Positions 37,464 to 49,074 of a stretch of 64,000 nucleotides of DNA are shown piece by piece. A program made the translations under genes and the position numbers. The stretch spans positions 248,001 through 312,000 of the forward strand of contig JAAXKN010000002.1 of NCBI GenBank assembly GCA_025612375.1, in the 5' to 3' direction. Every line of letters starts with the position of its first letter. Positions within the stretch are counted from its first letter, which is position 1. Origin of the DNA: Ignavibacteria bacterium (GTDB lineage: Bacteria > Bacteroidota > Ignavibacteria > Ignavibacteriales > SURF-24). The notes under the pieces were generated by a model. That model made no database searches and was not told where the DNA came from. It saw only the letters and a program-made list of their open reading frames with translations.

Positions 37464-39215
37464 TTACAGCCTGTCCTTGGCAACTTCAATGCTGATTTTC
37501 TTGCCGCGGATCTGGTTGTCCTGCATTACCTCAATTATTTCGCCGGCGTACTTTTCAGGGACGTTGACGAAAGTGAACTTGTCGAACATATCGATCTCGC
37601 CTATGATTTTACCGGGAAGTCCGGTTTCACCTGCAATTGCGCCAACAATATCGCCCGGCTTAACCTTATCTTTCTTCCCGACATTAAGGAAGAGTCTTGC
37701 AACAGGGCCATCGCCTTTGGAAAGGTTTCCTTTTTTGGAGCGGTCCTTTTTGCCCGTTTCTCCCCAGAAGTCGTCCAGCCTGCGGTTTTCCTTTTTCCGG
37801 TCTTCAGGTCTTTTCCTTTCTTCCTTACGGCCTTCTTTTCTGCGGCCGTCTTTTCTGCGGTCTCCCCTTCCTGTATCTTCCCAGGAGAATGACTCTCTTG
37901 CTTCAGGCACAAATTCAGGGGTTTCCATTTCGCTCTGGAAATTCATCTTCATCATTGCGGCAGCAACGTCAAGTGAGCTGTTTTCCTCATCAATAAGCTT
38001 TTCAACAAAGCGGATGTACTTTTTAAGTCCGCCTTCTTTAATCGTCTTTCTGATCTCATCGAGGAATATGCCCGCCTTAACTTCCCTTACGTCGTCAAAG
38101 GTGGGAACGTCCATGAGTTTCATTTTTGTCTTTGTGTACTTCTGTATATCCTTCAGGCGGTAGAGGTCACGGCCGGTTACAAAAGTAAAGGCGCGGCCCG
38201 ATTTGCCTGCGCGGCCCGTTCTGCCGATCCTGTGTACGTAGTACTCTTCATCCTGCGGCATGTCGTAGTTAAAAACAGCCTCAACGTTTTCAACGTCAAG
38301 CCCGCGTGCTGCAACGTCGGTTGCAATGAGTATCTCGATAATGCCTTTTCTGAATTTTCCCATAACTTTTTCGCGTGTAGCCTGCTTCATATCGCCGTGC
38401 AGAGCGTCTGCGGCGTAGCCGCGTGCCTGCAGGTGTTCTGTAAGCTCATCAACGCCGCGCTTGGTATTGCAGAAGACAAGTCCCAGTTTAACGTTATAAA
38501 GGTCTATTACGCGCGTGAGGACTTCAAGTTTATTTTTCTCACGCACCTCGAAGTATATCTGTTCAATGCTGGGCACGGTTAAGACCTCGTGCACGACCTT
38601 GATATTAACAGGGTCTTTCTGGTATTTTTTTGCGAGGTCTTTTATAGGCTTTGGCATTGTAGCTGAAACCATTACGGTCTGCCTGTCTTCTGGTGTATGC
38701 TTTAATATCAGTTCAATATCGTCCCTGAAGCCCATATCGAGCATTTCATCTGCTTCGTCAAGCACAACCATCTTTACATTATCAAGCCTGATGGAGCCTC
38801 GTTCCATATGGTCCATGACCCTGCCCGGAGTTCCGATTACGATCTGCACGCCTCTGGAAAGGATGTTAAGCTGACGCTCTATCGACTGTCCCCCGTAGAC
38901 CGGAAGGAGGGAGAATCCTTTTTTATATTTTGCAATTTTACTTATCTCTTCAGAAACCTGGAGCGCGAGTTCGCGTGTAGGGCAGAGTATGAGTGCCTGT
39001 ATGTTCCTGTCGTGAGGGTCCAGCATTTCCAGGGCCGGAATTCCGAATGCGGCGGTTTTCCCGGTTCCTGTCTGTGCCTGCCCAATGATGTCATGCCCCT
39101 CAAGGAGGGCCGGAATAGCTTCTGACTGGATTGGTGTTGCCTCTTCGTATCCAAGGTCAGTAATTGCCTTTTGAATTTCTTTTGATAAGTTTAGTTCTTC
39201 AAACCTTTTGTTCAT
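37464..39215 (-). CDS. DEAD-box RNA helicase with C-terminal DbpA-type RNA-binding domain
   Basis: 583 aa RNA helicase of the DeaD/CsdA type, for ribosome assembly and mRNA remodelling, especially in the cold. All motifs are present: Q-motif YEEATPIQ, I AQTGTGKT, Ia PTRELALQV, II DEAD, III SAT, IV VFCNTKRGVDEL, V ATDVAARGLDV and VI HRIGRTGRAG. A linker at about 425-495 is very rich in Arg, Lys, Asp and Glu. The last about 75 residues are a DbpA RNA-binding domain (VARLFLNVGKKDKVKPGDIV, GLPGKIIGEIDMFDKFTFVN). It appears monocistronic. Confidence 0.95.
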   Translation of the reverse strand: MNKRFEELNLSKEIQKAITDLGYEEATPIQSEAIPALLEGHDIIGQAQTGTGKTAAFGIPALEMLDPHDRNIQALILCPTRELALQVSEEISKIAKYKKGFSLLPVYGGQSIERQLNILSRGVQIVIGTPGRVMDHMERGSIRLDNVKMVVLDEADEMLDMGFRDDIELILKHTPEDRQTVMVSATMPKPIKDLAKKYQKDPVNIKVVHEVLTVPSIEQIYFEVREKNKLEVLTRVIDLYNVKLGLVFCNTKRGVDELTEHLQARGYAADALHGDMKQATREKVMGKFRKGIIEILIATDVAARGLDVENVEAVFNYDMPQDEEYYVHRIGRTGRAGKSGRAFTFVTGRDLYRLKDIQKYTKTKMKLMDVPTFDDVREVKAGIFLDEIRKTIKEGGLKKYIRFVEKLIDEENSSLDVAAAMMKMNFQSEMETPEFVPEARESFSWEDTGRGDRRKDGRRKEGRKEERKRPEDRKKENRRLDDFWGETGKKDRSKKGNLSKGDGPVARLFLNVGKKDKVKPGDIVGAIAGETGLPGKIIGEIDMFDKFTFVNVPEKYAGEIIEVMQDNQIRGKKISIEVAKDRL

Positions 39216-39701
39216 TAAAATCCCGTTTTTAATAAAATATAATGTATTAGCGGCTACTTTTCAGCACATCAATCCCTGCATCATAATATATGAGCAATGG
39301 TTCATTTTTTCAAATGCAGAAGATGGAAAACTAGTGGTATCAATTCAGCAGTCTAATTTAAGACATACTGGCCTGGCGGCAGCCGTTTTTACGCAAGATG
39401 ATATATACAATTGGCTCTAACAAACAAATTGCACGGAGACAAAGACCGGATTAAATTACAACCTGAAAGGGGGAATAAAATCATACTACTCTTTGAGTAA
39501 CAACGGAAAAGTAAACCGTTTACAAGAATACCGAAATAAACCTTAGGAAACAAGTTAAACTTTGTGCCGGACGCCTTTTTGCCGCACCACTGCCCCGGGG
39601 TGGAAAAGTGAAGAAAATTAGAAATTTGAAAAATATCTTCGGGGAAAGCGAATAAATAACGAAAAAATGTGAACATTAATGCAAAAAATTCACAAATAAC
39701 C
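39216..39701. other. Spacer upstream of the ilv/leu operon, no gene supported
   Basis: About 490 bp between the start of the helicase gene (minus) and the ilv promoter. Two overlapping open frames (39208-39420 plus, 39389-39802 minus) lack ribosome sites and recognisable sequence. The only notable element is the 13-nt perfect palindrome GTAAACCGTTTAC at 39511-39523. Confidence 0.5.
39511..39523. promoter_or_regulatory. Palindromic operator-like site
   Basis: GTAAAC-C-GTTTAC is a perfect inverted repeat resembling a LacI-family half-site arrangement. It lies about 180 bp before the ilv promoter and 300 bp from the helicase start. No matching regulator gene is in the window, so this is tentative. 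Confidence 0.25.
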
Positions 39702-39730
39702 TTGACAAAGCGGGTTCGAGGGCCTATATT
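39702..39730 (+). promoter_or_regulatory. Consensus sigma-70-type promoter ahead of the ilv/leu operon
   Basis: TTGACA at 39702-39707 and TATATT at 39725-39730 are separated by exactly 17 nt. A start near 39737 would give a leader of about 15 nt before the small ORF at 39752 and about 310 nt before ilvD. The downstream direction and position make it the best promoter candidate for the operon. Confidence 0.75.
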
Positions 39731-39751
39731 GCAAACAATAATTAAAAATTT

Positions 39752-39922
39752 ATGAAAGACATAACAGTAAATATTTCCAGAGAAAAAGCTGCCGTGCTGC
39801 ACGGAAGCCTGGGTTATGTCTTGCCAGGTACTTCAATCAATAACATTTCTTTAGAAATTCTCCTCCTAGGGATTAGCATTATTATCGTAGTGCTCGGTAT
39901 TATTATTAGCATTCTAAGCTAA
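39752..39922 (+). CDS. Small BCAA-rich ORF (56 aa): candidate leader peptide or small membrane protein
   Basis: A 56-codon ORF from ATG 39752 to TAA 39922, lying between a consensus promoter and ilvD. Twenty-seven of 56 residues are branched: 13 Ile, 9 Leu and 5 Val. The C-terminal part, EILLLGISIIIVVLGIIIS, is almost entirely hydrophobic. The first 20 residues are mixed (MKDITVNISREKAAVLHGSL). This looks either like a leader peptide whose translation reports branched-chain aminoacyl-tRNA supply for the operon downstream, as with IlvL in enterobacteria, or like a one-helix membrane protein. No strong Shine-Dalgarno precedes it and no GC-rich terminator follows it, so classical attenuation is not proven. 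Confidence 0.5.
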   Translation: MKDITVNISREKAAVLHGSLGYVLPGTSINNISLEILLLGISIIIVVLGIIISILS

Positions 39923-40045
39923 AAATACTTGTCAATCCCTAATCAAAAATCAAAAAATTACACAAGCACAAATTAAAAGATCAGATCAGGGGTTGACCTG
40001 AATCCAAAAGGTATGTTTCTGAAGAGAGAAAATTCAGAGGAAAAC

Positions 40046-41755
40046 GTGAGATCTGATTTAATTAAACAGGGTTTCGATAAGGCTCCCCACCGCAGCCTCC
40101 TGAGGGCTACGGGAGTAGTCAAAACCGATGAGGACTTCAAGAAACCTTTCATCGGCATCTGTAATTCGTACGTGGATGTAATTCCGGGCCATGTGCACCT
40201 CCAGGACTTTGCCAAAATAGTGAAAGAAGCCGTAATTGAAGCCGGCGGCGTTCCTTTTGAATTTAATACCATAGGCGTTGACGACGGCATTGCAATGGGG
40301 CATATTGGAATGCGCTACTCACTGCCGAGCCGCGAACTGATTGCCGACTCGGTTGAAACCGTAATTGAAGCCCACCGCTTCGACGGCATGGTCTGTATCT
40401 CGAACTGCGACAAGATAGTGCCCGGTATGATGATGGCTTCGGTACGCATAAATATACCGACCATATTTGTCTCGGGCGGCCCTATGAAGGCAGGACATAT
40501 GCCCTCTACAGGTGAACGGACTGACCTCATTTCGGTCTTCGAGGGAGTGGGGCAGTATAAGTCGGGACAGATCACGTCCCAAAGGCTTAAAGAACTTGAA
40601 GACTTCAGCTGCCCTTCCTGCGGCTCTTGCGCAGGCATGTTTACGGCAAATTCAATGAACTGCCTGCTTGAAGCTCTCGGACTCGCTCTTCCCGGAAACG
40701 GAACTGTACTTGCAATTGACCCTAAAAGAAAAGAACTGGCTAAGGAAGCCGGTAAAAAAATAATCGAACTCGTTAAAAAAGACTTAAAGCCGCGTGACAT
40801 CATAACGCGTTCTTCAATGCTAAATGCATTTGCTTTAGACATGGCAATGGGCGGAAGCACAAATACAGTATTGCATACGCTTGCCGTTGCAAGTGAGGCC
40901 GGTCTGGCTTTCGACCTTAATGAATTAAATGAGCTTTCACGCAAAGTCCCTTATATCTGCAAGGTAAGCCCGGCTACAGCGCTTGTTCATATGGAAGACG
41001 TCGACCAGGCAGGCGGCGTTACAGCAATATTAAATGAGCTTTCGCGTGTTAAGGGCGTGCTTGACCTCGATCGCCCCACGGTTACAGGAAAGACGCTGGG
41101 CGAGAACATTGCATCTTCAAAAGCTAAAGATCAGAAGATAATCCGGTCAATTGAAGAGCCCTTCAGCCACTCGGGCGGCCTGGCAGTACTTTTCGGCAAT
41201 CTTGCTCCTTTGGGGTCGGTTGTCAAAACCGCGGCTGTGGATGAAAAGATGCTTAAGCATACTGGTCCTGCAAGAGTCTTCAACAGCCAGGATGAGGCCG
41301 TAAGCGCCATAATGGACGCAAAAATTAAAGCTGGCGACGTGGTTGTAATAAGATATGAAGGCCCCAAAGGAGGCCCCGGAATGCCCGAGATGCTTTCACC
41401 TACAAGCGCTATAGTCGGAATGGGCTTAGGCGACAAGGTGGCCTTGATTACAGACGGAAGATTCTCCGGCGGCACAAGAGGCGCCTGCATAGGGCACGTT
41501 TCACCCGAGGCTGCCGACATGGGTCCCGTTGCAGCCCTCAAGGATGGCGACATAATAAAAATTGACATACCCGGAAAAACACTAGAAGTGGAGCTTTCGG
41601 ATGAAGAGATCAGTGCCCGCCTGGAGGCATTGCCGGAATTTGAGCTTAAAATTAAAACAGGATATCTCGCCCGCTATTCACGCATGGTCACCTCAGCCAA
41701 TACGGGCGCGGTCTTAAGAATCCCTGAAACCAGAAAGAAAGAAAAGGTGCAGTAA
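40046..41755 (+). CDS. ilvD: Dihydroxy-acid dehydratase IlvD
   Basis: Iron-sulfur dehydratase that makes 2-oxo acids from 2,3-dihydroxy acids, the third common step of Val and Ile synthesis. The GTG at 40046 is preferred: AGAGGA lies 5 nt upstream and the protein then starts [20 protein letters not shown], as family members do. An ATG at 40013 would add [11 protein letters not shown] and has AAAAGG almost touching it. The 569-aa protein has the cluster Cys in [13 protein letters not shown] and [19 protein letters not shown], and [15 protein letters not shown]. It reads as IlvD, not the related phosphogluconate dehydratase, because of its ilv neighbours. It is the first large gene of the ten-gene operon, 1 nt ahead of ilvB. 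Confidence 0.95.
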
Positions 41756-41756
41756 T

Positions 41757-43475
41757 ATGAAAGAAAACAACGGTATGATGAGAGGAGCAGAAATATTTTT
41801 TGAATGCCTCAGAGAGGAGAAAGTTGAATATGTATTCGGATATCCCGGAGGCGCGGTCCTGAAACTTTATGAAAAGCTCTACGACGTGGATTTCCTTGAG
41901 CACATTCTGGTGCGCCACGAGCAGGGTGCAACTCATATGGCTGAAGGCTACGCAAAGGCTACGGGAAAGCCCGGCGTGGTGCTTGTGACCTCGGGTCCGG
42001 GCGCTACAAACACAGTTACCGGTATAGCTGACGCATACATGGACTCGGTGCCTCTTGTCGTCTTTACAGGCCAGGTCGCTTCTCACCTTATCGGTAACGA
42101 TGCTTTCCAGGAAGCTGACATCGTTGGTATTACGCGCCCTATAACAAAGCATAACTTCCTCGTGCGTGACGTGAGGGAGTTGGCTTCAACAATTAAGAAG
42201 GCTTTCTACATTGCCTCTACCGGGAGGCCCGGACCCGTACTGGTGGACCTTCCAAAAGATGTAATTAACTCGGAATGTGAATTCCAGTATCCGGAGAGCG
42301 TTGAATTAAAAGGCTACAGGCCGTTTTTCTACGGGCACCAGTACCAGATCAAAAAAGCAGCCGAGATGTTAAGAGCGGCCAAGCGCCCCTTGCTCTACGT
42401 CGGAGGCGGCGTTCTGATTTCCGGCGGCTCCAATGAGCTCAGGGTTCTTGCCAGTGAACATAACCTGCCCGTTACGATGACGCTTCAGGGCCTTGGAGCT
42501 TTTGACGGAACGAACGAGCAGTCGCTTGGAATGCTCGGAATGCACGGCACCTACTGGGCTAACCAGGCCGTAAGCAACTGCGACCTTCTTATTGCTCTCG
42601 GCGCCCGTTTTGACGACAGGGTTGCAGGCGACGTTAATAACTTTGCACCTAAAGCTTTTAAGATACACGTGGATATTGATCCAACTGCAATAGATAAAAA
42701 CGTCGTTGTGGACCTTCCGATTGTGGGCGACGTTAAGCACGTAATGGCTGAACTTGCAGCTGAACTTGGTGAACCTTTAAGTTTCCCGGAATGGTGGAAC
42801 GAGATTAACCAGTGGAGAGACGAATGCCCGCTTGTCTATGAAGACAACGACGGACAGTTAAGAGCGGAATACGTAATTGAAAAGCTCTCGGAGAAGACCA
42901 AAGGCGAGGCTGTCGTTGTTTCAGACGTGGGACAGCACCAGATGTGGACCGCACAGTACTATAAATTCAAAAACCCCCGCTCGCTCCTTACAAGCGGCGG
43001 ACTTGGAACCATGGGATTCTCGGTGCCCGCGGCAATTGGTGCAGCTTTTGCCGTGAAGGACCGTCCGGTTATTTCCATCAGCGGCGACGGCGGCTTCCAG
43101 ATGAACATCCAGGAGCTTATTACGGCTGCGGCATATAAGGTTCCGGTTAAGTTCATAATTATCAATAACAGCTTCCTCGGCATGGTGCGCCAGTGGCAGG
43201 AACTTTTCCATTTTGAGAAGTACAGCTTTACAGACCTCTCGGAGACCAACCCCGACTTTATGAAGGTGGCCGAGGCTTTCGGGCTTAAGGCTTTCTCGAC
43301 AGATTCACCGAAGGAAGTAGACTCTATACTGGACAAGGCTTTTGAAATAAACGACGGCCCTGTACTCATAGAATTCAAGGTGGTGCGCGAAGATATGGTT
43401 TTCCCGATGGTTCCGCCGGGAGCCAGCTACGAAAAAATGATTGTTAAACGACTGAATCCAAAATCAACGAAGTAA
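41757..43475 (+). CDS. ilvB: Acetolactate synthase large subunit
   Basis: Thiamine-diphosphate enzyme, 572 aa, that condenses pyruvate with pyruvate or 2-oxobutyrate, the first step shared by Val and Ile. The N-terminal TPP domain has YVFGYPGGAVLKLYEKL and the activating Glu in HEQGATHMAEGYAKA. The middle domain carries FAD-site elements, and the C-terminal TPP/Mg motif is GDGGFQMNIQEL followed by INNSFLGMVRQWQE. All three domains are whole. The start is 1 nt after the ilvD stop, so translation is probably coupled. The regulatory subunit ilvN follows after 5 nt. Confidence 0.96.
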   Translation: MKENNGMMRGAEIFFECLREEKVEYVFGYPGGAVLKLYEKLYDVDFLEHILVRHEQGATHMAEGYAKATGKPGVVLVTSGPGATNTVTGIADAYMDSVPLVVFTGQVASHLIGNDAFQEADIVGITRPITKHNFLVRDVRELASTIKKAFYIASTGRPGPVLVDLPKDVINSECEFQYPESVELKGYRPFFYGHQYQIKKAAEMLRAAKRPLLYVGGGVLISGGSNELRVLASEHNLPVTMTLQGLGAFDGTNEQSLGMLGMHGTYWANQAVSNCDLLIALGARFDDRVAGDVNNFAPKAFKIHVDIDPTAIDKNVVVDLPIVGDVKHVMAELAAELGEPLSFPEWWNEINQWRDECPLVYEDNDGQLRAEYVIEKLSEKTKGEAVVVSDVGQHQMWTAQYYKFKNPRSLLTSGGLGTMGFSVPAAIGAAFAVKDRPVISISGDGGFQMNIQELITAAAYKVPVKFIIINNSFLGMVRQWQELFHFEKYSFTDLSETNPDFMKVAEAFGLKAFSTDSPKEVDSILDKAFEINDGPVLIEFKVVREDMVFPMVPPGASYEKMIVKRLNPKSTK

Positions 43476-43480
43476 TAAAT

Positions 43481-43999
43481 ATGAAGCATATAATTTCTGT
43501 ATTGTTAGAAAACAGGTACGGCGCTTTCAACCGCGTTGCTACAATGTTCAGCGGAAAGGGTTTTAATATACAGAGTATTTCAATCGGTGAGACTGAAATG
43601 CCTGAGGTTTCAAGAATGACGCTCGTTACTTCGGGCGACGACAAGATAATCGAACAGGTGGTTAAGCAGCTCAACCGCCTCATCGATACAATAAAGGTGA
43701 TTGATCTTACACAGACTCCAACTGTAATAAGGGAACTTGCCATGATTACAGTATTCTACCAGAAAGGCACACGCTCAGAGATCCTGAATGTGGGCGACAT
43801 TTTCAGGGGCAATGTGGTTGATATTAACAATAAAACCATAACGCTCGAAATTACAGGACCGCCCGACAAAATTGACGCCGCGATCAACGTCCTTGCCCCT
43901 TACGGCATTAAGGAACTTGCGCGCTCGGGTGCTGTAGCCTTGAAAAGAGGCGAACAGACAAAAGATTTTAAAAAGCAGACTAATTATTCACAACTTTAA
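43481..43999 (+). CDS. ilvN: Acetolactate synthase small (regulatory) subunit
   Basis: 172 aa regulatory partner of IlvB. Residues 1-75 form an ACT domain ([37 protein letters not shown]). The C-terminal half is the ALS_ss_C domain ([40 protein letters not shown]). ACT domains in this subunit bind valine for feedback control, so the enzyme is probably valine-sensitive. It is 5 nt after ilvB and 13 nt before ilvC. Confidence 0.95.
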
Positions 44000-44012
44000 C
44001 ACAAGGATTAAA

Positions 44013-45029
44013 ATGAAAGTTTATTATGAACAGGATGCGAACCTGGATGTATTAAAAGGTAAAAAAATTGCCGTCCTCGGCTTCGGCAGCCAGGGACATG
44101 CCCACTCACTTAATTTAATGGAAAGCGGTCTCGATGTAACAGTTGGCTTGAGAGAAACCAGTGCTTCATGGCCCAAGGCTGAAAAAGCAGGACTTAAAGT
44201 TAAAACCGTAAAAGAAGCAGTTAAGGATGCAGACGTTGTAATGGTTCTTCTTCCCGACCAGACACAGAAAAAAGTTTACGACGAGGAAATAGGTCCTTAT
44301 ATTAAATCAGGTGCCACACTGGCCTTTGGCCACGGATTCAACATACACTACAAGCAGATCGTGCCTCCGGCTGACATAAATGTTATGATGATTGCTCCTA
44401 AAGGCCCGGGTCACCTGGTAAGAAGAACATATCTTGAGGGTAACGGCGTGCCTAACCTCATAGCTGTTTACCAGGATCCTTCAGGCAAGACAAAAGAAAT
44501 GGCTCTTGCATGGGCAAAGGGCATTGGCGGAACAAGAGCAGGTGTCATTGAAACAAACTTCAAGGATGAGACTGAAACCGATCTCTTCGGCGAACAGGCT
44601 GTACTCTGCGGCGGCTCTGCAGAACTTATTAAGGCCGGCTTTGAGACACTTACTGAAGCCGGATATCCGCCTGAACTGGCATACTTTGAATGCATGCACG
44701 AGATGAAACTTATTGTCGACCTCTATTATGAAGGAGGCCTTACAAGAATGAACTACTCCGTAAGCGAAACAGCTGAATACGGCGGCATGACACGCGGAAA
44801 AAGAGTTATAAACCCCGAAGCAAAAAGCGAAATGAAAAAGATCCTTGCTGAAATACAGGACGGACGCTTTGCAAAGGAATGGCTTGATGAATGCAATAAC
44901 GGGCTTCCTAACATGAAGAAGATGAGAGAGGAAAACCAGGAGCACTCAATTGAAAAGACAGGATCTAAGCTCCGCTCAATGATGAGCTGGCTCTTCAAGA
45001 AAAACGCCAAGGAAGAGGTGGGCGTATGA
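44013..45029 (+). CDS. ilvC: Ketol-acid reductoisomerase (class I)
   Basis: 338 aa Mg- and NAD(P)H-dependent enzyme for the second step of Val and Ile synthesis. The Rossmann motif is [20 protein letters not shown]. The cofactor loop reads [14 protein letters not shown], with the Ser pair typical of NADPH-using enzymes. The metal site is in the knotted C-terminal domain ([41 protein letters not shown]). The length matches class I. Its stop overlaps the start of leuB as ATGA (45026-45029), a sign of translational coupling. Confidence 0.96.
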
Positions 45030-46102
45030 GTTTCAAGGTAATGCTGCTCCCGGGCGACGGTATCGGTCCCGATATCGTAAGCTCTGCTGTCAGGGTAATG
45101 AAACTGGTTTCGGGGAAGATGAACTTCCCCCTCCAGTTTACAGAAGGGCTCATGGGCGGATGCTCATACGAAAAATACGGCACTCCGCTTTCAGAAGATG
45201 TCCTAAGCGAGTGCAAGGCTTCAGACGCGGTATTGCTCGGAGCCGTAGGAGGGCCCAAATGGGAAACATTACCCCACCACCTGAAACCCGAGGCAGCGTT
45301 ATTAAGGATCAGAAAAGAACTGGGGCTTTTTGCAAACATCAGGCCCGCAAAAGTCTACGACTGCCTGGTCGATTCCTCTTCACTTAAAGCGGAAACGGTT
45401 AAGGGAACGGATTTCATTGTTGTTAGAGAGCTTACAGGCGGAATATACTTTGGTGAACCCCGCGGCTTTGACGATTGCAGGGGATGGAACACCATGGAAT
45501 ATACACGCGCCGAAGTTGAGCGCATCGCAAGAATAGCATTTGAAATGGCGCGCACGAGAAGTAAAAAAGTTATGTCTGTCGATAAGGCCAACGTGCTTGA
45601 AGTCTCACAGTTCTGGAGAACAGTGGTGCATGAGGTGCATAAGGAATATCAGGATATCACTCTTTCCGATATGTACGTGGATAATGCTGCAATGCAGGTT
45701 GTACGTAACCCGAAACAGTTCGACGTTATTGTTACAAGCAATCTTTTCGGCGACATCTTAAGCGACATTTCAGGCATGATAACCGGAAGTCTTGGAATGC
45801 TTCCTTCTGCAAGCATGGGTACCAAATACGCCTTGTATGAACCGATACACGGCAGTGCCCCTGACATTGCAGGGCAGAACAAGGCAAACCCTCTTGCTAC
45901 AATTTCCTCGGCTGCAATGCTCCTTGAGTATTCGCTTAAGAATCCCAAAGCTGCTGCCGTTATAAACGGGGCGGTTGAAGGCGTCCTGGCCGAAGGATAC
46001 AGGACAGCCGATATATATTCCGAAGGCACAAAGCTCTTGTCTACAACGGAAATGACAGAGGCGGTTTTGGAGCAGGCGGAAAAAATACTTTCAGAAAAGT
46101 AA
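45026..46102 (+). CDS. leuB: 3-isopropylmalate dehydrogenase
   Basis: 358 aa NAD-dependent oxidative decarboxylase of leucine synthesis. With cimA in the operon it probably also oxidises 3-methylmalate on the way to 2-oxobutyrate. The patterns are complete: [43 protein letters not shown] (substrate loop), [15 protein letters not shown] (catalytic Lys) and [20 protein letters not shown] with the metal-binding Asp in [13 protein letters not shown]. It starts within the ilvC stop codon. Confidence 0.95.
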
Positions 46103-46153
46103 TGATGTTAAGTCCTTACAAAGTTAATTAGAGAGAGATAGAGAGGAGAAAAA

Positions 46154-47728
46154 GTGGATAATAAAATAGTAATCTTCGATACAACACTGCGCGATGGCGA
46201 ACAGTCACCAGGGGCTTCTTTGAACGTCTTTGAAAAGCTCGAAATTGCGCGCCAGCTTGTAAGGCTTAATGTGGATGTGATAGAGGCGGGTTTTCCCGTC
46301 TCCTCACCCGCACAGTTTGAAGCTGTAAAAAGAATTTCAGATGAATCTACGGCCATAATTGCGGCTCTGGCAAGGGCAAAGGAAGCAGATATCAAGTCTG
46401 CCTATGAAGCCCTGAAGAGCGCAAAGCATCCGAGGATTCATACGTTCTCCAGCACTTCGGACATCCATATACTGGGCAAGTTCGGCGACGACAAGTATGG
46501 CAGGACACTCAAGGAAAAACGCGACACGGTAGTTAAGATGTCTTATGACGCGGTGGCATATGCAAAGTCTTTCGTTCAGGACGTCGAATTTTCAGCCGAA
46601 GATGCAGGAAGAACAGACATCGGTTACCTCAGTGAAGTTGTTGAGGCCGCAATTGAAGCCGGTGCAACAACTGTTAATATACCCGACACGACAGGATACA
46701 CACTCCCTGAAGAATTCGGGGCAATAATAAGCGAGTTAAGAAAAAGAGTTAAAAATATAGACAGGGCCATTATCAGCGTGCACTGCCACAACGACCTGGG
46801 CCTTGCTGTAGCAAACACTTTAAGCGCCTTAAAGAACGGAGCGCGGCAGGTGGAATGCACAATTAACGGAATTGGCGAAAGAGCCGGCAACGCATCTTTG
46901 GAAGAAGTTGTAATGGCTCTTAAGGTAAGACAGGATATCTGCGGATTTCATACCGATATAAACTCACCCGAGATATTCAACACCAGCCGTATGGTATCGG
47001 GCTTTAGCGGAATGGTAATTCAGCCGAATAAAGCAATTGTTGGCGAGAATGCATTCGCGCATGAGTCCGGAATCCATCAGGATGGAATGCTCAAAAACAA
47101 GCAGACCTATGAGATAATAACTCCTGAACTGGTTGGTGTAAATAAATCGAGGATTGTCCTGGGACGCCATTCAGGTCGCCACGGGCTTGAAAGCCGCCTG
47201 AAGGAACTGGGATATAATAAAAAAGGTGAAGAACTTCAGGCCGTATATGAAAAATTCCTGGCTCTTGCAGACAAGAAAAAAGAGATATTTGATGAGGACC
47301 TGAGACTTTTGATGGGCGACGATGTGCGCAGGGATGAAGAGCATTTTGAGATTGTCTCGCTTCAGGTTCAGTCGGGCACAACGGCAATACCGACCGCCAC
47401 TGTTGCAATAAAGTCGGGTGAAGAAATTCTTCAGGGCTCGGCCATAGGCGACGGGCCTGTAGACGCATGCTTTAATGCCATTGAAATGGTGCTTAATGTA
47501 AAGCCCGTTGTTGAGGCTTATCATGTGCGCTCTGTAACTTCAGGCCGCCAGGCGATGGGTGAGGCCATAGTAAGAACAAGACATGATGAAAAATCCTTTA
47601 CAGGTAGGGGCATTTCAACAGACATTATTGAGGCAAGTGCCAGGGCATTTTTAATGGCAGTAAACGCCCAGTACCTTTACCTGAAAAATGAAAACGCTCA
47701 GGATGAAGAAGAGCTCTCTGTAGCTTAA
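46154..47728 (+). CDS. leuA: 2-isopropylmalate synthase
   Basis: 524 aa enzyme that joins acetyl-CoA with 2-oxoisovalerate, the committed step to leucine. It starts at GTG 46154 behind GAGAGGAG. The HMGL-type TIM barrel opens with IFDTTLRDGEQSPGASLNV and carries the metal His pair in SVHCHNDLGLAVANTLSALK. The substrate-site pattern GIGERAGNASLEEVVMAL is the LeuA form. The C-terminal about 120 residues are the LeuA regulatory domain (DEEHFEIVSLQVQSGTTAIP), which binds leucine. Distinct from cimA further downstream: this copy has QSP where cimA has QGE after the DTTLRDG motif. Confidence 0.94.
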   Translation: MDNKIVIFDTTLRDGEQSPGASLNVFEKLEIARQLVRLNVDVIEAGFPVSSPAQFEAVKRISDESTAIIAALARAKEADIKSAYEALKSAKHPRIHTFSSTSDIHILGKFGDDKYGRTLKEKRDTVVKMSYDAVAYAKSFVQDVEFSAEDAGRTDIGYLSEVVEAAIEAGATTVNIPDTTGYTLPEEFGAIISELRKRVKNIDRAIISVHCHNDLGLAVANTLSALKNGARQVECTINGIGERAGNASLEEVVMALKVRQDICGFHTDINSPEIFNTSRMVSGFSGMVIQPNKAIVGENAFAHESGIHQDGMLKNKQTYEIITPELVGVNKSRIVLGRHSGRHGLESRLKELGYNKKGEELQAVYEKFLALADKKKEIFDEDLRLLMGDDVRRDEEHFEIVSLQVQSGTTAIPTATVAIKSGEEILQGSAIGDGPVDACFNAIEMVLNVKPVVEAYHVRSVTSGRQAMGEAIVRTRHDEKSFTGRGISTDIIEASARAFLMAVNAQYLYLKNENAQDEEELSVA

Positions 47729-47778
47729 TGAAATGAGATAACCGGAATTCGAAAAAGAATAATACTTAAGGAAATAAA

Positions 47779-49074
47779 ATGGGAATGACAATAACCGAAA
47801 AGATACTCGCCAGGTCAGCAGGAAAGTCAAGGCTGACCCCGGGCGAGAATGTCTGGCTGAATGTCGACGTCCTGATGACGCATGACGTCTGCGGGCCGCC
47901 GACAATAGAAATATGGAAGAAGGAATTCGGGAGTGAAGCTAAAATATGGGATAAAGATAAGCTCGTTATCATCCCCGATCACTATATATTCACAGAAAAC
48001 ACACACGCAAACAGAAACGTTGAAATGCTTAGGACCTTTGCAAAGGAACAGGAGCTTAAGAATTACTATGACCCCGGAACAGACCGCTACAAGGGCGTCT
48101 GCCATATAGCCCTGGCTGAAGAAGGTTTTAACGTTCCCGGTACTGTGCTCTTCGGAACGGACTCGCACACATGTACTTCGGGTGCTTTCGGCATGTTCTC
48201 GACAGGCGTTGGAAATACGGATGCCGCTTTTATTATGGGTACGGGCAAGATCTGGGAGAAAGTGCCTGAATCAATAAAATTTACTTTTAACGGAAAGATG
48301 CCTGAATACCTGACAGCAAAAGACCTGATCCTTCAGATCCTCGGCGACATTGGAACCGACGGCGCCACATACTGCGCAATGGAGTTTGACGGAGAAGCCA
48401 TAGAGTCACTTTCAATGTATGAGAGGATGACTCTTACAAATATGGCAATTGAAACCGGCGCCATAAGCGGCATAATTGCCGTTGACGGTGTAACTGAAAA
48501 ATACCTCGAGGGAAGGGTGAAAGGAAGCTACGAAGTTTTCAAAAGCGACAATGATGCAAAATATCTTAAGACATTTACCTATGACGTTTCCAAGCTCAGG
48601 CCCGTTGTTGCAGCTCCGCACAGCCCGGACAAGCGTGCTCTTGCCAGCGAAGTTAAAGGAACAAGAGTTACAAAGTGCTACATAGGTTCATGCACGGGAG
48701 GGAAAATTACAGACTTCCGTTTTGCAGCCAGGGTTCTTGCAGGAAACACGGTTAAAATCCCGACCTTTATAGTCCCCGGTTCCACTACAGTTGCCAGGAT
48801 GCTGGAAGAGGAAACTTATGAGGGCTCAACACTGAAGGATATATTTATCAGTGCCGGATGCAGGATTGCACCTCCTTCATGCGCGGCGTGCCTGGGCGGA
48901 CCGGCTGACACCTTCGGGCGCTCGGTTGACGGAGACGTTGTTGTTTCCACTACTAACAGGAATTTCCCGGGACGCATGGGAAGCAAGAATGCCGGAGTTT
49001 ACCTGGCTTCACCACTTACAGTAGCAGCAACAGCCGTGAACGGCTCACTGGCCGACCCGGCAGAGTGCATGTAA
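47779..49074 (+). CDS. leuC: 3-isopropylmalate/(R)-2-methylmalate dehydratase large subunit
   Basis: 431 aa aconitase-family subunit with a [4Fe-4S] cluster. Cluster ligands lie in CYIGSCTGGKITDF and in CRIAPPSCAACLGGPADTF. Also seen are TVLFGTDSHTCTSGAFGMFS and KDLILQILGDIGTDGATY. The length is that of the short archaeal-type LeuC (about 420-430 aa), rather than the 460-aa enterobacterial form. It works with the leuD product encoded 37 nt downstream. With cimA and leuB present, it probably also isomerises citramalate. Confidence 0.94.
   Translation: MGMTITEKILARSAGKSRLTPGENVWLNVDVLMTHDVCGPPTIEIWKKEFGSEAKIWDKDKLVIIPDHYIFTENTHANRNVEMLRTFAKEQELKNYYDPGTDRYKGVCHIALAEEGFNVPGTVLFGTDSHTCTSGAFGMFSTGVGNTDAAFIMGTGKIWEKVPESIKFTFNGKMPEYLTAKDLILQILGDIGTDGATYCAMEFDGEAIESLSMYERMTLTNMAIETGAISGIIAVDGVTEKYLEGRVKGSYEVFKSDNDAKYLKTFTYDVSKLRPVVAAPHSPDKRALASEVKGTRVTKCYIGSCTGGKITDFRFAARVLAGNTVKIPTFIVPGSTTVARMLEEETYEGSTLKDIFISAGCRIAPPSCAACLGGPADTFGRSVDGDVVVSTTNRNFPGRMGSKNAGVYLASPLTVAATAVNGSLADPAECM

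Follow-up and report, generated by a model that had tools for sequence, protein, structure and literature searches.

Between a consensus promoter and ilvD, the first gene of an ilv/leu operon in an Ignavibacteria bacterium, lies a short open reading frame crowded with isoleucine, leucine and valine codons, which raises the question of whether its translation could report the supply of branched-chain amino acids (BCAAs) to the genes behind it. Most known cases of amino-acid operons controlled through the ribosome come from Proteobacteria, Actinobacteria and some Firmicutes; Vitreschak, in 2004, reportedly described attenuators in Proteobacteria and also mentioned Bacteroidetes/Chlorobi. A search of openly available literature returned no description of attenuation in Ignavibacteria, and an earlier mention of BCAA leaders in this group is possible. 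We consider it highly probable (about 0.9) that the ORF is the leader peptide, read by the ribosome, of an attenuator that would sense charged Ile, Leu and Val tRNAs. The window, i.e. the whole 64,000-nt stretch of DNA analysed, carries the following elements at this locus:

39702 to 39730, + strand: promoter with -35 TTGACA (39702-39707), a 17-nt spacer and -10 TATATT (39725-39730), an 11/12 match.
39752 to 39922, + strand: leader ORF of 56 codons, ATG at 39752 and stop codon at 39920-39922, without a Shine-Dalgarno (SD) site.
40046 to 41755, + strand: ilvD, which opens the operon, with a probable GTG start (ILVD_EDD_N, ILV_EDD_C).
41757 to 49074, + strand: rest of the operon, comprising ilvB (checked with Pfam) and then ORFs read by sequence as ilvN, ilvC, leuB, leuA and leuC.

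The initial annotation had described a consensus promoter followed by a 56-codon ORF with 13 Ile, 9 Leu and 5 Val, placed ahead of ilvD. A codon count returned the same figures, the position before ilvD was confirmed, and the TTGACA-17-TATATT promoter proved to be the top-scoring site of the 2.5 kb scanned. The predicted transcript start falls at approximately 39737, and the ORF begins 21 nt behind the -10 box. The start of ilvD is probably not the ATG at 40013 but the GTG at 40046, preceded by an SD site (GAGG, 40037-40040) and opening a protein (MRSDLIK...) whose N-terminus aligns with those of relatives. The control codons (Ile, Leu and Val) of the leader lie mainly at 39845-39919, and 18 of its last 25 residues are I/L/V. 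Among approximately 500 ORFs of at least 30 aa on both strands of the window, the leader alone has more than 13 such residues in its last 25, which argues that this tail did not arise by chance. Furthermore, folding of 39737-40060, a check proposed in the initial annotation, showed the region to be more stable than its shuffles (z -3.3; 0/100). The divergent neighbour (37464-39215, - strand) encodes an RNA helicase of the DEAD-box type that carries a DbpA RNA-binding domain.

A close ilvD orthologue is present in 57 genomes of the Ignavibacteriales. As counted by reading the loci, a short ORF that keeps its I/L/V codons while its sequence drifts lies upstream of ilvD at 55 of these 57, which supports the earlier proposal that the ORF may sense charged branched-chain tRNA. 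The two leaderless loci (L122 and L128) are ilvD copies in genus g28, and in one of these two genomes (G074) the leader sits before ilvB instead (L158). A TTGAC..TA promoter precedes the leader ATG in 57 leaders. The leader is also found in the cultured Melioribacter roseus, a member of the same order as the window genome and of another family. Two leaders are interrupted by an in-frame stop, L152 within its first third and L146 within the I/L/V run; these loci come from less complete assemblies, and the stops are attributed to error or decay.

The way in which the leaders have diverged indicates that the ORF is translated. In alignment A1, 122 of 148 gap runs within the ORF were multiples of three; 25 of the 26 non-triplet runs have length 5 and stem from a single insertion column caused by L018, so that the figure without this artefact is 122 of 123. 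Behind the leader stop, the corresponding count was 53 of 185. The leaders have a median length of 52 aa, and an SD-like site was seen at 0 of 57 leader ATGs versus 54 of 61 downstream starts. Codon use within the leaders is distinctive as well: CTA makes up 48% of their Leu codons, versus 4% across 36 ilvD genes and 1% for the ilv/leu genes of the window, and ATT makes up 81% of their Ile codons, versus 56% and 39%, respectively, although in the window leader itself only 2 of 9 Leu codons are CTA. CUA is likewise the preferred Leu control codon of the enterobacterial leu attenuator, and in Salmonella its replacement by CUG lowered the sensitivity of control (PMC1183508).

The initial annotation had noted that the hydrophobic C-terminal run, approximately 25 residues long, would also suit a one-helix membrane protein, whose place before ilvD would then be incidental. 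We find this scarcely credible. The tail is nearly all I/L/V, with 925 such residues versus 18 F/M/A/W/C/Y in the last 22 positions of 61 leaders, and the peptide drifts freely, with 9 nonsynonymous versus 4 synonymous codon changes between two congeneric species. Moreover, RNA helices covary within its codons, synonymous sites included, and every leader copy examined precedes ilvD or ilvB. A chance ORF might be expected in AT-rich intergenic DNA, where ATT runs would supply Ile fortuitously; this explanation is refuted by the conservation, across three families, of promoter, frame, biased codon use and covarying helices.

Within and behind the ORF lie segments capable of alternative pairing; from 5' to 3', the locus reads promoter, ATG, P0, Z, A among the I/L/V codons, stop codon, B, a G-poor spacer, C, D, E, SD site and ilvD start. 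Pairing between the segments of each species (own) was scored against pairing with segments of other species (swapped), which is the sole control for relatedness, and against shuffled segments. At the window locus the segments are:

39756 to 39765, + strand: 5' arm of helix P0, AAGACATAAC, codons 2-5 (own 17.9, swapped 14.3, shuffled 13.3).
39813 to 39822, + strand: 3' arm of helix P0, GTTATGTCTT, codons 21-24.
39846 to 39858, + strand: segment Z, TTTCTTTAGAAAT, in the ORF right before the I/L/V run; pairs with E.
39867 to 39874, + strand: segment A, TAGGGATT, codons Leu-Gly-Ile, within the control codons; alternative partner of B.
39931 to 39939, + strand: segment B, GTCAATCCC, 8 nt past the leader stop codon.
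39940 to 39988, + strand: B-C spacer, unstructured, A-rich and G-poor (A.54, C.14, G.065, T.26), 28-58 nt long in relatives.
39989 to 39997, + strand: segment C, GGGGTTGAC, partner of B (or D).
40001 to 40005, + strand: segment D, AATCC, weak alternative partner of C.
40015 to 40027, + strand: segment E, GTTTCTGAAGAGA, partner of Z or, in part of the order, of F.
40033 to 40040, + strand: segment F, TTCAGAGG, containing the ilvD SD site.

RNAalifold predicted a single helix, B:C, from 27 leaders, and from 61 leaders it predicted B:C with P 1.0, Z:E with P 0.99 and, with P 0.95, a small hairpin at the stop codon of the leader, the last perhaps partly a codon effect. Over the 61 leaders, 87.7% of the cells in B:C and Z:E were paired, versus 29-50% when the columns were slid by 1-3 positions. 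Two-sided changes affected 10 of the 19 pairs, in 26 cells versus 10.6 in shuffles. The segment test gave own, swapped and shuffled values of 23.1, 19.6 and 9.2 for B:C, 16.9, 14.1 and 11.4 for Z:E, and 15.7, 14.2 and 10.3 for A:B. The E:F pairing (13.3, 11.5 and 10.5) was clear in part of the order only, and C:D (11.3, 10.3 and 8.6) was weak, especially in the window. Most unrelated segment pairs were flat in the own-versus-swapped comparison; the A:E control was raised because the stretch tested as A overlaps Z. Additionally, A tracks B at synonymous sites, as seen in L131 and L137 (TCGGAATT with AATTCCGA) and in L015, and synonymous covariation of A was also found in L020 and L043. A:B and B:C are thus predicted to be mutually exclusive, with A inside the control codons, and the A:B / B:C / C:D arrangement so predicted, in which B:C is strong, A:B clear and C:D weak, is the classical attenuator layout.

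When the B:C helix was written as an unbiased DNA pattern, 33 of 164 genomes of the order matched, whereas the reversed control pattern matched 0. At L166 the match is a GC-rich palindrome unrelated to the leader; at the remaining matching loci that were inspected, an I/L/V-rich ORF precedes the match and ilvD or ilvB follows it. Among 395 genomes sampled from the phylum, matches outside the order were confined to GC-rich palindromes of another kind in families f23 and f44, a verdict based on the matched letters themselves. The GC-rich palindromes at L166 and L182-L188 have no leader, and may represent a repeated element in genus g110. A covariance search of 39200-40400 against 4227 Rfam families, including T-box and the ppGpp/ilvB riboswitches, gave no match to E 10.

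These pairings suggest how the place of the ribosome could be read. When BCAAs are plentiful, the ribosome would reach the stop codon and cover B, which lies 4-10 nt past the stop in 61 of 61 leaders; the footprint of a terminating ribosome extends up to 12 nt past the stop (PMC4833913). After its release, A could take B, leaving C to D. When BCAAs are short, the ribosome would stall in the I/L/V run and mask A, and B would pair with C; once the ribosome has passed Z, this B:C helix would be nested inside Z:E. The starvation fold would favour expression of ilvD and the downstream genes. Ensemble folds of 61 species are consistent with this scheme: when a ribosome was placed at the stop codon, the mean probability of B:C fell from 0.83 to 0.18 and that of C:D rose from 0.07 to 0.34. 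With the ribosome halted midway along the I/L/V run, B:C remained at 0.89. In the window leader, where the footprint used was slightly smaller, B:C still stood at 0.76 with the ribosome at the stop codon. The role of Z:E is ambiguous, since a ribosome held up on the earliest of the I/L/V codons would, in the computed folds, block this helix, not favour it.

The sensing half of the proposed attenuator is well supported, and its output half is inferred. The initial annotation had remarked that no GC-rich terminator hairpin follows the ORF, and indeed no terminator-like site was found on the + strand over 39752-40046. The same sensor could still be coupled to classical intrinsic termination with Z:E or C:D as the stem: a T-run directly follows E in some relatives (e.g. 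L024, L012 and L138), and related ilvD leaders of other phyla have terminators (L049, L064, L081 and L094). However, the window has AGAGAAAATTC after E and no T-run after D, and Z:E is AU-rich with a loop of near 160 nt, which makes this form of output highly improbable. Z:E as an intrinsic terminator in the window was rejected because no T-run follows it.

Because there is no terminator, the output would most likely be a change in how ribosomes load at the start of ilvD, possibly with a second step in which Rho acts on the untranslated mRNA; this is the least certain part of the proposal, and we give even odds that the output acts on translation of the first cistron. The ensemble folds gave no clear sign that the ilvD SD site, which segment F contains, becomes hidden: E:F covaries in part of the order, but mean accessibility of the site shifted by less than 0.1 between ribosome positions. 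Tested as sequestering partners of this site, neither Z, nor the control codons, nor the part of the ORF that precedes Z gave an own-over-swapped signal; the control codons scored own 12.2 versus swapped 12.7 against the ilvD SD, with no covariation.

Rho could also be the main effector behind the same sensor, loading on the unstructured, G-poor B-C spacer after the ribosome leaves the stop codon and ending transcription before or in ilvD, unless prevented by a stalled ribosome and the B:C/Z:E fold. Consistent with this are the lack of an intrinsic terminator, an unstructured spacer in which C exceeds G in 56 of 61 leaders, and the approximately 120 untranslated nt between the leader stop and ilvD; Rho has also been suggested for other terminator-less leaders (PMC1262725). 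However, the spacer has only 14% C and is poor for a rut site, and the signals kept after loss of ilvD, described below, point to translation, so that we regard primary control by Rho as rather unlikely.

In genus g28, the operon lacks ilvD and ilvB follows the leader. Eight loci (L035, L037, L040, L151, L152, L153, L155 and L156) retain the SD site and the GTG start, which now begin a 57-67 codon ORF with N-terminal residues inherited from IlvD; by reading the sequence, L158 has a similar ORF with a TTG start. This second ORF ends I/L-rich in L037, L153, L155 and L158 (NINIIIILSIIILSI in L037), with a hairpin behind, and looks like a second leader placed in series before ilvB. That the start site was retained after the gene was lost suggests an effect of the first leader on translation in these loci; as an alternative, translation of the second ORF could shield the transcript from Rho. 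The ilvD-less genomes provide a natural experiment on the target of the leader. More tentatively, with odds somewhat below even, BCAA attenuators throughout the order may read the place of the ribosome through a two-helix long-range fold, with B:C enclosed by Z:E, whose effect falls on translation of the first cistron and involves no terminator. Such a device would be stackable: after ilvD was lost, its start site would have been turned into that of a further leader ORF, so that two attenuators would precede ilvB one after the other.

Compared with known systems, the Ignavibacteriales leader shares with the enterobacterial ilvGMEDA (ilvL) and leu (leuL) attenuators a leader peptide of BCAA codons before ilv/leu genes and a set of competing pairings. 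It differs from them in lacking an intrinsic terminator (GC stem and U-tract), in its greater length, in its extra long-range helices P0 and Z:E, in having no Rfam match and in belonging to a different phylum. The initial annotation had anticipated that the mechanism, if real, would depart from the textbook one, and the combination of an attenuator layout with no terminator and no Rfam family agrees with this. The ilvB-II motif of the Corynebacterium glutamicum ilvBNC leader also combines a BCAA-codon uORF with terminator/antiterminator logic before a BCAA operon, but it ends in a U-tract terminator (P2), whereas the Ignavibacteriales leader has none and is followed by ilvD as first gene (PMC10272879); an Rfam search, the only comparison made, found no sequence relation between the two. 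The LEU element of actinobacterial leuA is similar in having a leader ORF of Leu codons, no terminator and suspected control at the ribosome site, but its Leu codon run pairs with the leuA SD (PMC1262725), whereas in the Ignavibacteriales no covariation was seen between the control codons and the ilvD SD. The LEU element is also marked by a conserved pseudoknot; the pairings searched for in the Ignavibacteriales leaders were nested helices. The ilvD (WRC-18-2) motif of Veillonella is likewise a structured RNA before ilvD; in the part of the source available to us, it is presented as a Firmicute-only, weak riboswitch candidate with long stems, and no leader peptide is described (PMC8632094).

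Of 80 loci from many phyla, 9 had a forward-strand ORF upstream of ilvD with 13 or more I/L/V in 20 residues, and the reverse strand gave none; one of the nine (L041) lies on the same contig as L020 of the Ignavibacteriales. The ilvD leaders at L049, L064, L081 and L094 resemble those of the order in their I/L/V-rich ORF (only 11/20 I/L/V in L064) but have intrinsic terminators, clear by eye, while L053, L055 and L043 show a B:C-like pair and no visible terminator. The L049, L064, L081 and L094 MAGs are labelled Anaerolineae, 'bacterium' and Gemmatimonadetes, and thus place classical ilvD attenuators outside the usual phyla. I/L/V-rich leaders before ilvD were also noted at L053, L055, L042, L045 and L046, in MAGs labelled Bacteroidetes, CSSED10-310, Neomarinimicrobiota and Calditrichia. 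These ORFs in other phyla suggest that ilvD leader peptides extend beyond the Ignavibacteriales, with the terminator-less form being either one branch or a convergent form.

In summary, on comparative evidence, the leader is very likely a terminator-less, lineage-specific variant of ribosome-mediated attenuation. It would constitute an RNA family not described before, represented by 61 aligned leaders that include that of the cultured M. roseus, and a conserved, structurally distinct version of the leader in the Ignavibacteriales (Bacteroidota/Chlorobiota group), in which the question of how a stalled ribosome controls an operon without an intrinsic terminator becomes testable.
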